NCBI RefSeq assembly: GCF_000183545.2
Contig: NZ_JH976535.1
Coordinates: 921,890 to 985,889, forward strand
From: Thermaerobacter subterraneus DSM 13965
GTDB lineage: Bacteria; Bacillota; Sulfobacillia; Thermaerobacterales; Thermaerobacteraceae
Direction of reading: 5' to 3'
DNA: 64,000 bases
The position numbers and the translations under genes were made by a program. Shown one piece after another: positions 37,855 to 63,082 of the stretch (the stretch's first letter is position 1; every line of letters begins with the position of its first letter). The notes beneath the pieces were generated by a model. That model was not told where the DNA came from and made no database searches. It saw only the letters and a program-made list of their open reading frames with translations.

Positions 37855-38044
37855 CGGTGATTCCTCCCTTCGCCGATGTCTAAGGTGTCACCGGCACCGC
37901 AGCGGTATGCGAGGGGCGGGCGGCGGCGCGCCTCGTACCCGGGCCTCCCGGGCGGCCCGGCCGCCTTGTCTCCCTCATAAAGGCCATGGGAGGCGGGAAC
38001 CCCATTTCGGGGGTCACGTACCGTCCATGGCAGGAGGTGACATC

Positions 38045-59985: not shown

Positions 59986-60562
59986 TCCCTCCCGATGGCG
60001 CGGGCGCATGGTGCGGGCGCAGCGCGCCCGTTCCGTGCGGAGCCCGCCGGTCCGGTTACGGGCCGCCCCGGTGCCGGGGGCGGGGGCCCTCCGGGGAAAC
60101 CGCGGCAACCGCGGCGGATCCCGGCTTGAGGGCCCGCCGCTGGCCGGGGTCGCCGCCCGGACCTGGGCCCCTGGAACCGCTGGCTAGGGCATTGTATGGC
60201 CGCCCGTGGGCCGCCGCCCCACACGGGGCGGCAGGCGGGACTCCTCCCTGCACGTCCCGCTCGCAGGAGCGGGGCTCACCTCTTCTCCGGTACGCCATCT
60301 GGCTGCCTCGTGGCCCGTGGCCTGCCCGTCCCGGCGAGACGGCGGTCCGTGACCGGGGGACCGGCCGCCCTTGACCCGTGGAGCCCCCGGCGTGACCGGC
60401 CGTGACGGGTAGAGTGACCGGCTTGACCGGCCGGACGGGACCGGCCGGGCTGCCGGGCGGACGGCCCCCGGTGCCGGGAGATGGTGGCAACTGGAAGGTA
60501 TAGCAGCCGGGGGCTTCCGCAATCTAACCGCTGGAAACAGCTAGCCGTCAGGGGGGATCATC
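59986..60562. other. Intergenic region between divergent genes
   Basis: No gene was recognised in this 577-nt stretch. On the minus strand CATACAATG (about 60190-60198) contains a good -10 box (TACAAT) for the DUF1805 gene. Around 60390-60465 the words GACCGG and CCGGCC recur many times. Confidence 0.4.
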
Positions 60563-61435
60563 GTGGACGAACCCAGCGCCTTTGGTGGCCCGAGCCACGC
60601 TCGTTACGGCGCAACGCCGCAATCGTACAACCCGCAGGAGCAGTACACTTCCCAGTGGCAGTCGCCGGCGGGCGGGCAGGGCCTGGGCAACCAGGCTTCG
60701 GGCCAGTTCCAGAACCAGGCCGGCCAGGCCGGCGGGCAATTGGGCCAGTACGGCCAGTTCGGGCAGGCTGGCGGCCAGGCCGGCCAGTACGGGCAGTTCC
60801 AGAGCCAGGCGGGGGCGTATGGCCAGTTCCAGAACCAGGCCGGGCAGTTCGGGCAGTATGGCCAGAGCGCCCATGCCCAGTACGGCGCCACGGCCCAGAG
60901 CTACGATCCCGCGGAAAACTACAGCAGCCGCTGGCAGTCCCAGGCCGGTGCGGGTAACATGAGCAACCAGGCCGGGGGCGCCAGCTATGGCGCCGCGGGG
61001 GCTGGCCAGTACGGCCAGCCGTACGGGCAAGCCGGCGGCCAGTATGGCCAGTTCCAGAACCAAGCCGGGCAATTCGGCCAGTACGGCCAGTATGGCCAGG
61101 CGGGTGCCCAGGCGGGAGCCCCGTACGGTCAGTACGGCGGCCAGTACACCCAGAGCACGGCAGGCCAGTTCCAGAGCCAGGTAGGCCAGTACGGCCAAGC
61201 CGGAGGCCAGTATGGCCAGTTCCAGAACCAGGCGGGGTCATCCGCCCAGTTCCAGGGCCAGGCCGGCCAGTACGGGCAGTTCCAGGGCCAGGCCGGCCAG
61301 TACGGGCAGGCCGGCCCGGGCGGCCATGCCCAGTACGGCGCCACGGCCCAGAGCTACAACCCGGCGGAGAACTACTCCGCCAAATGGCAGTCGGCCACGG
61401 CCAACGAGCAGGCGGGTGGCGCTTTCCGGGGTTGA
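60563..61435 (+). CDS. Tyr/Gly/Gln-rich low-complexity repeat protein
   Basis: A 290-residue hydrophilic protein built mostly from GQYGQFQNQAGQ-like repeats, with hardly any Leu, Ile or Val. Three copies of a distinct motif, related to YGATAQSYNPAENYSAKWQS, punctuate it at residues about 15-34, 110-130 and the C-terminus. There is no signal peptide, membrane helix or cysteine. The composition resembles prion-like, phase-separating domains. Another analogy is the Gln/Gly-rich gamma-type spore proteins, which also have repeated motifs. It starts at GTG 60563 after GGGGGGA. I know no family for it; the repetitive but frame-keeping design argues that it is real. Confidence 0.8.
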   Translation: MDEPSAFGGPSHARYGATPQSYNPQEQYTSQWQSPAGGQGLGNQASGQFQNQAGQAGGQLGQYGQFGQAGGQAGQYGQFQSQAGAYGQFQNQAGQFGQYGQSAHAQYGATAQSYDPAENYSSRWQSQAGAGNMSNQAGGASYGAAGAGQYGQPYGQAGGQYGQFQNQAGQFGQYGQYGQAGAQAGAPYGQYGGQYTQSTAGQFQSQVGQYGQAGGQYGQFQNQAGSSAQFQGQAGQYGQFQGQAGQYGQAGPGGHAQYGATAQSYNPAENYSAKWQSATANEQAGGAFRG

Positions 61436-61462
61436 CGTGACCGCCGCCGGTGCGGTCGTCCA

Positions 61463-61490
61463 GGGGGCCGGGTTCCATCCCGGCCCCCTT
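61463..61490 (+). terminator. Terminator of the repeat-protein gene
   Basis: GGGGGCCGGG and CCCGGCCCCC flank TTCCAT and are followed by TTGTC, 27 nt after the stop. The rest of the 324-nt gap before lipA shows no recognisable feature. Confidence 0.8.
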
Positions 61491-61759
61491 GTCGCGTTGA
61501 CGGCCGGTGCTGTGCTGCCGTCGCGGCTCCCCGAGCCGGGGGAGCCCGCGGTGGGAACTGGTGGGCACAACGCGCCGCACGGCCCCCGCCGCAAGGCCTC
61601 GGCCTGAAGGCCCCTGCCGAAAGTCCCCGCCCGCAGGTACCTGCCCGTGGAAACCCGCCCGGGAGGAACCCGGCGCCCGAAGGCGAAGGCCCATTTGGCA
61701 GCCGCGCCGGGCCGGCCGGCCCTGCGGCGGCCACCCCAATGAAGGTGGGATCGCGCCCC

Positions 61760-63082
61760 ATGGAAGCCCTTCACCGGAATGGAAGCTCGCCCGAAACGGA
61801 AGCGCTGGCGGGACCGCAGGAGCCTCGGTCCGGCGCCGGCCCGGCCATCGTACCTGCTTCCCCGGCGGCTCGCCCTGGCCAGGCAGGTGCCGGCCAGGAA
61901 ACCGGTCCGGCTCTTCCCGGGCCCGACGCCGCCGCCACGGCCCAACCCGGCCGCTCCCCCGCTGGGGCCGGACCGGCGCCGGCGGCCGGTGGATCCGGCT
62001 CCGATGCCCGTACCCGAGGGTTTCGTGACCTCCCGGCGGCGGACGGCCATGCCCTGGCCGGCGGTCACGCCGGGCGCCGCCATCCTGACTGGCTCAAGGT
62101 GCGGCTGGCCCAAGGGCCCAATTACAACCGGCTCAAGCGGCTGCTGCGCGGCATGAGCCTGCACACCGTCTGCGAAGAGGCCCGCTGCCCCAACATCTAC
62201 GAGTGCTTCGAGAACCTGACCGCCACCTTCATGATCCTGGGGAACATCTGCACCCGGGCCTGCCGGTTCTGCGCCGTCACCACGGGCCGGCCCACCGAGC
62301 TGGATTGGGCGGAGCCGGAGCGGGTGGCGGATGCCGTCCAGCGCCTGGGCCTGCAACACGTGGTGGTCACGTCGGTGGCGCGGGACGACCTCCGGGACGG
62401 GGGCGCCGCCGTCTTCGCCGAGACCATCCGGGCCATCCGGCGCCGCTGTCCCGATACCGCGGTCGAGGTGCTGATCCCCGACTTCAACGGCGACTGGGAC
62501 GCCCTGCAGGTGGTCCTGGACGCCGAACCCGACATCCTGAACCACAACGTGGAGACGGTGCGGCGCCTCTCCGACCGGGTGCGCTCGCGGGCCCGATACG
62601 ACCGGTCCCTGGCCCTCCTGGCCGAAGCCAAGCGGCGGGCACCCCACATCAAGACCAAGTCGGGCCTGATGCTGGGATTGGGCGAGACGTGGGACGAGAT
62701 CCTGCAGACCCTGCGGGACCTGCGGGCCCACCAGGTGGACATCGTCACCATCGGCCAGTACCTGCGCCCGACCCGGGAGCCCGTCCATCTCCCGGTGGAG
62801 AAGTACTACCACCCGGACGAGTTCGCGGAGCTCAAGCGCATCGGCCTGGCCATGGGCTTTTCCCACGTGGAATCCGGCCCCCTGGTGCGGAGCTCGTACC
62901 ATGCCCACGAGCAGGCCGACCGGGCGCGCCGGCGGGACGGGGCGGGGGACGAAGCCGCACCGGCGCAGGTCCAGGCCGGGCCCCCGGAGACCCACCGCGG
63001 GGCCCCAGCCCAGGCGGCCCCCTTGGCAACGGTCCATGGCCTGCAGGCTGCCCGGGCAGCGGGGGGCGCAGCGGGAGCATGA
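61760..63082 (+). CDS. lipA: Lipoyl synthase
   Basis: A radical-SAM enzyme that inserts two sulfurs into protein-bound octanoate. The auxiliary cluster ligands ([12 protein letters not shown]), the radical-SAM motif (CTRACRFC) and the C-terminal RSSYHA serine are all present. The catalytic part begins at about 62085 (PDWLKVRL). Before it lies a roughly 110-residue Ala/Gly/Pro-rich head that normal LipA lacks, and a Gly/Ala tail follows. The start is uncertain (ATG 61760 with AAGGTGGG, or ATG 61739). The stop overlaps the lipB start. Confidence 0.95.

Follow-up and report, generated by a model that had tools for sequence, protein, structure and literature searches.

A lineage-restricted Tyr/Gln-rich repeat protein with a putative sigma-G-type promoter in Thermaerobacteraceae

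A low-complexity gene with three aromatic modules

The window (the whole stretch of Thermaerobacter subterraneus DNA that was analysed, 64 kb) contains, on the forward strand at positions 60563-61435, an ORF with a GTG start at 60563 and a stop codon ending at 61435. It encodes a 290-aa low-complexity protein rich in Gly, Gln, Ala and Tyr, and its coordinates and length are exactly those given in the first-pass annotation of the window. The gene is single-copy in its 2.89-Mb genome. Gln (23%), Gly (22%), Ala (16%) and Tyr (9%) together account for 71% of the protein, Cys and Ile are absent, and charged residues are few (Arg and Lys total four); the GRAVY value of about -1 indicates a strongly hydrophilic protein. 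Among the 195 open frames of at least 150 aa in the window, its Q+Y+N fraction of 0.358 was the highest, the next-highest being 0.136, and its longest repeated substring was 16 aa, against at most 8 aa in 200 shuffles. AlphaFold2 modelling from a shallow alignment gave a mean pLDDT of 41.5 without secondary structure, and the protein is predicted to be intrinsically disordered. The term prion-like, which had been applied to it earlier, holds for the composition only. Searches of Pfam and NCBIfam matched no family to the protein or its orthologues; the matches to PF21930 (best E 2.9e-4, under the family cut-off) were confined to the module region, were seen in three orthologues and were discounted as effects of composition.

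Three motifs had been described as punctuating the protein, and we found them as three 26-aa modules at residues 11-36, 103-128 and 254-279, with the consensus xHAQYGATAQSYDPxExYSSRWQS. Module 1 (SHARYGATPQSYNPQEQYTSQWQSPA; 60593-60670, + strand) is a divergent N-terminal copy (YGATPQSYNPQEQYTSQWQS). Module 2 (AHAQYGATAQSYDPAENYSSRWQSQA) lies at 60869-60946 (+), and module 3 (GHAQYGATAQSYNPAENYSAKWQSAT; 61322-61399, +) is followed by the conserved C-terminus ANEQAGGAFRG. Over 13 distinct copies of the module, Y5 G6 A7 T8, S11 Y12 and W22 Q23 were invariant. The linkers between the modules are irregular QYGQFQ-type repeats. The unit GQYGQFQNQAG occurs in two exact copies and in five copies in relaxed form, and the earlier description of the protein as built from such units thus overstates its regularity.

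A putative G-rich ribosome-binding site, AGGGGGGATC, was located at 60550-60559 (+), with GGGGGGATC conserved in five of five genomes, making it plausible that the gene has its own ribosome site, as the first-pass annotation claimed. The terminator claimed alongside it was borne out in part. A strong hairpin (fold -43.5 kcal/mol, z -4.1) is present 3' of the stop codon at 61462-61489 (+) and may serve as a terminator without a T-run, but a terminator scan after the stop codon detected neither a terminator nor a T-run, and the hairpin was rejected as a canonical terminator because the T-run is absent.

Conservation and distribution of the family

Orthologues were identified in all three other Thermaerobacter genomes examined and in one MAG of the same family (G004; 91% complete, 7% contamination), and the protein family rests on these five genomes. 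The orthologues are 258-404 aa long (26-40 kDa) and contain three or four modules each. Their lengths differ by whole codons and both termini are conserved, with the C-terminal end ANEQ[AT]GGA[FY]R kept in the genus. Gene order is also kept in all five genomes, with a divergent DUF1805 gene upstream and lipA downstream, and lipB follows lipA in every genome except on the short MAG contig. LipA, called from its first ATG, has ~110 N-terminal residues (61739-62086) ahead of the conserved domain. This stretch aligns to only one of the four relatives, and the true start of LipA may lie further downstream.

Codon-based comparison gave dN/dS values of 0.18-0.30 among Thermaerobacter pairs and of 0.53 for the comparison with the MAG, in which dS approaches saturation, and third-position changes were in excess in every orthologue pair. 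These results indicate that the frame is under purifying selection across the five genomes. The view that there is no real gene here, only a DNA repeat expansion or one of the long spurious frames common in high-GC DNA, can effectively be dismissed: the frame, the start region, both termini and gene order are conserved, lengths differ by whole codons, third-position changes are in excess, and dN/dS is 0.18-0.53. ORF 60563-61435 is confirmed as a real, conserved gene; conservation of the frame in relatives, on which the first-pass annotation had made its reading depend, was checked and found in five genomes.

To define the distribution of the family, a module profile was searched against 149 further genomes of the class (154 in total) and 398 genomes of the phylum, a sample of a larger group, and no convincing relatives were found in either set. 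Two weak matches in phylum genomes (G168 and G431) were rejected as chance; they lie in short frames that, by eye, are apparent shadows of an AsnC/Lrp-like regulator gene. A contig search returned the Bacillota MAG ZC4RG37 (4239-bp contig) as the only relative, which was taken to be the same contig as that of MAG G004. As far as searched, the family appears confined to Thermaerobacteraceae.

A putative sigma-G-type promoter and the sporulation gene set

Upstream of the ORF, at 60498-60526 (+), we detected a putative sigma-G-type forespore promoter consisting of a -35 element GTATA (60498-60502), a 17-bp spacer and a -10 element CAATCTA (60520-60526). The site GTATA-N17-CAATCTA lies 33-36 nt before the start in five of five genomes (36 nt in this genome). 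Alignment of the five upstream regions revealed a conserved island, TGGAAGGTATAGCA ... CGCAATCTA ... CTGGAA, amid diverged DNA, in which the -35 and -10 elements were invariant in all five genomes, compared with four of 51 columns just upstream. When scored with a weight matrix derived from SASP promoters alone, the target site was the top site of its intergenic region and the best in each of the five genomes; a score at least this high is reached at eight of 128,000 strand-positions in the window. The extended form GGTATA-N17-CAATCTA is expected by chance 0.02 times in the window at up to two mismatches. A generic sigma-G-type pattern with a spacer of 17-18 gave 39 matches genome-wide, and a reversed control gave 27. 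Taken by itself the motif is thus weak evidence, and the argument rests on its position together with its invariance; a sense-strand match to the generic pattern within ~120 bp of a given start has a chance expectation of ~6e-4.

The B. subtilis sigma-G consensus comprises gHATR, a spacer of 17-18 and CATNHTA, which the site fits with one mismatch. The -10 elements of sigma-F promoters contain GG, which is absent from CAATCTA; sigma-F and sigma-G are not separable with certainty from this -10 element, and we refer to the promoter as putative sigma-G-type (for the sigma-G-type promoter sequence in relation to B. subtilis, see PMC3789822). Three alpha/beta-SASP gene families of the same genomes are preceded by GCGTG-18-CATATTA, by GCATG-18-CATGCTA and by GTATC/GCATC-17-CACACTA/CAAACTA, indicating that the candidate promoter shares its architecture with those of three of the organisms' own alpha/beta-SASP gene families. 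The alpha/beta-SASP family with a DYWG[DE][IV]PAR stretch (L028-L032) had no clear sigma-G-type site within 400 bases upstream.

Two further features were noted during the promoter analysis. A sigma-G-like site, GCATA-18-CACCTTA, lies at 37881-37910 (-) just upstream of a DUF3243 (PF11588) ORF; 0.22 such matches per window are expected by chance, and the site is only a lead. Elsewhere in the same genome, outside the window, a 29-base stretch is present in three near-identical copies within ~6 kb (G000:C1, 388724, 393067 and 394995; loci L075-L077) and apparently belongs to a repeated element.

We examined the sporulation gene set of the five genomes. SigG scored above the curated cut-off and alpha/beta-SASPs were present in all five, and GPR was present in the four Thermaerobacter genomes. 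Gamma-type SASP (SspE) was found neither in the five genomes nor in any of the 154 genomes of the class, with a positive B. subtilis control, suggesting that the gamma-SASP role is vacant there. T. marianensis is spore-forming, with terminal spores that are rarely detectable (PMC3035304), and T. composti is a spore-former (PMC11008173). For T. composti Ins1, a possible auxotrophy has been predicted for several amino acids including Tyr (PMC11008173), which would suit a Tyr-rich reserve. Galperin et al. 2012 reported that none of the clostridial genomes sequenced up to then contained SspE (PMC3533761). Work from 2021 on the SASPs of C. difficile repeats this and describes the gamma type as a hypothesised amino-acid reservoir (PMC8452069). 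On the basis of its promoter, the Thermaerobacter gene is probably expressed in the forespore.

A possible spore-core protein and competing explanations

We propose, with moderate confidence, that the protein is a forespore-expressed, disordered spore-core protein that acts like a gamma-type SASP as an amino-acid reservoir or filler. The sigma-G-type promoter would direct transcription in the forespore late in sporulation, and the disordered cytoplasmic protein would be retained in the spore core. As a Gln/Gly/Ala/Tyr bulk protein, it would fill the core and be degraded to amino acids at outgrowth, and the YGAT...RWQS modules could, at a guess, be sites of weak self-association or protease access. 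Several points run counter to a reservoir role. The modules are far more conserved than pure storage would require, a hint that they may have a structural or binding function, the size of 26-40 kDa is far above that of SASPs, and the lack of a GPR site (see below) would leave the degradation route without an evident part for GPR.

The protein resembles SspE (PF04259) of Bacilli in being Gln/Gly-rich, repetitive, hydrophilic and free of Cys, in its apparent sigma-G-type promoter and in being encoded alongside alpha/beta-SASPs and GPR; the Thermaerobacter protein is also predicted to be disordered. It differs in that it is Tyr-rich and carries a different module, and in that the Thermaerobacter proteins, at 258-404 aa, exceed both the 84 aa of B. 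subtilis SspE and the SASP-size limit of <100 aa. The PF04259 profile matched none of the five orthologues at E <= 10, whereas the B. subtilis SspE control scored 6e-34. With the limit set at E <= 1, a genome-wide search with this profile gave no match in any of the five genomes. The GPR cleavage motif E[IVF][AG]xE was absent from all five orthologues. Distant homology to SspE, considered by eye from an aromatic-G-x-x-x-x-S pattern and Gln/Gly linkers, was unsupported, with an hhalign probability of 0.1%. With no similarity, no GPR site and a length three times too great, the protein is, as judged from its sequence, not a member of the SspE family. Nor did it match the alpha/beta-type SASP family (PF00269), the true alpha/beta-SASPs of the genome being encoded elsewhere.

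A possible but less probable explanation is that the protein forms a gel- or condensate-like spore matrix, in which Tyr, Trp and Gln stickers in the modules would organise or protect components of the core or of germination. The Tyr-/Gln-rich disordered sequence with conserved aromatic modules is consistent with such a matrix, for which GerG (CD0311) of Clostridioides difficile would be the working analogue and the best precedent for a structural or gel-forming role. GerG is a spore protein specific to its lineage, and its Asn-rich repeats form gels in vitro (PMC5241399); both proteins are lineage-restricted and disordered, with low-complexity repeats that vary in number among relatives. However, the GerG repeats are dispensable for function (PMC5241399), and the four Arg and Lys residues of the Thermaerobacter protein offer few partners for Tyr. 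The two are also set apart by composition and published description, GerG being Asn/Met/Pro-rich with GMPNNMSNNMNSNM repeats, whereas the Thermaerobacter protein combines Gly/Gln/Ala/Tyr with YGAT...RWQS modules; the Asn-rich GMPNNMSNNMNSNM repeats are absent from the Thermaerobacter proteins, in which Asn makes up 2-4%. The likeness to eukaryotic prion-like domains and glutenin repeats is compositional, with no homology claimed, and concerns other organisms and another context. The general composition in question is that of the Tyr/Gly/Gln prion-like domains of eukaryotic RNA-binding proteins and of wheat glutenin repeats.

It is more tentative still that this SspE-unrelated Thermaerobacteraceae family, which lies outside Bacilli, fills the gamma-SASP role by forming a Tyr/Gln condensate or gel as the matrix of the spore core in an extreme thermophile. 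If the proposed reservoir or filler role is correct, Thermaerobacter would possess a filler protein or amino-acid store of a type whose descriptions have so far been limited to Bacillus and related bacteria. In Bacillus spores, gamma-type SASPs are a major protein and a proposed amino-acid reserve for outgrowth, whereas clostridial genomes have yielded no report of them. If an unrelated protein has converged on this role in a deep-branching thermophile, that would show the role to be a general one that different sequences can fill, and would provide a simple test case for the condensation of a Tyr/Gln low-complexity protein at 60-75 C.

It is unlikely that the protein is instead made in the mother cell as a spore-coat or crust protein, cross-linked via Tyr (dityrosine) or Gln (transglutaminase). 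Its richness in Tyr and Gln would fit, and low complexity and restriction to one lineage are common among coat proteins, but the conserved promoter block lacks a sigma-K-type CATANNNTA -10 and its elements are of forespore type, which makes a coat role less likely, and Lys is nearly absent, so that few Gln-Lys cross-links could form.

Even less likely is a function that has nothing to do with spores, either as an adhesin (secreted or on the cell surface) or as a stress protein of vegetative cells. Low-complexity Gly/Tyr repeats are known in adhesins and in resilin- and glutenin-like proteins, but no signal peptide or hydrophobic segment was visible in the 290-aa protein, and no sigma-70-type promoter was found in the region of the gene, the element conserved upstream being sigma-G-like. 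The first-pass annotation had listed phase separation, adhesion and spore storage as options. Phase separation would fit the composition and the predicted disorder; adhesion is unlikely because a signal peptide or hydrophobic stretch is lacking, whereas spore storage gains support from the sporulation genes of these genomes and from the conservation of the sigma-G-type promoter.
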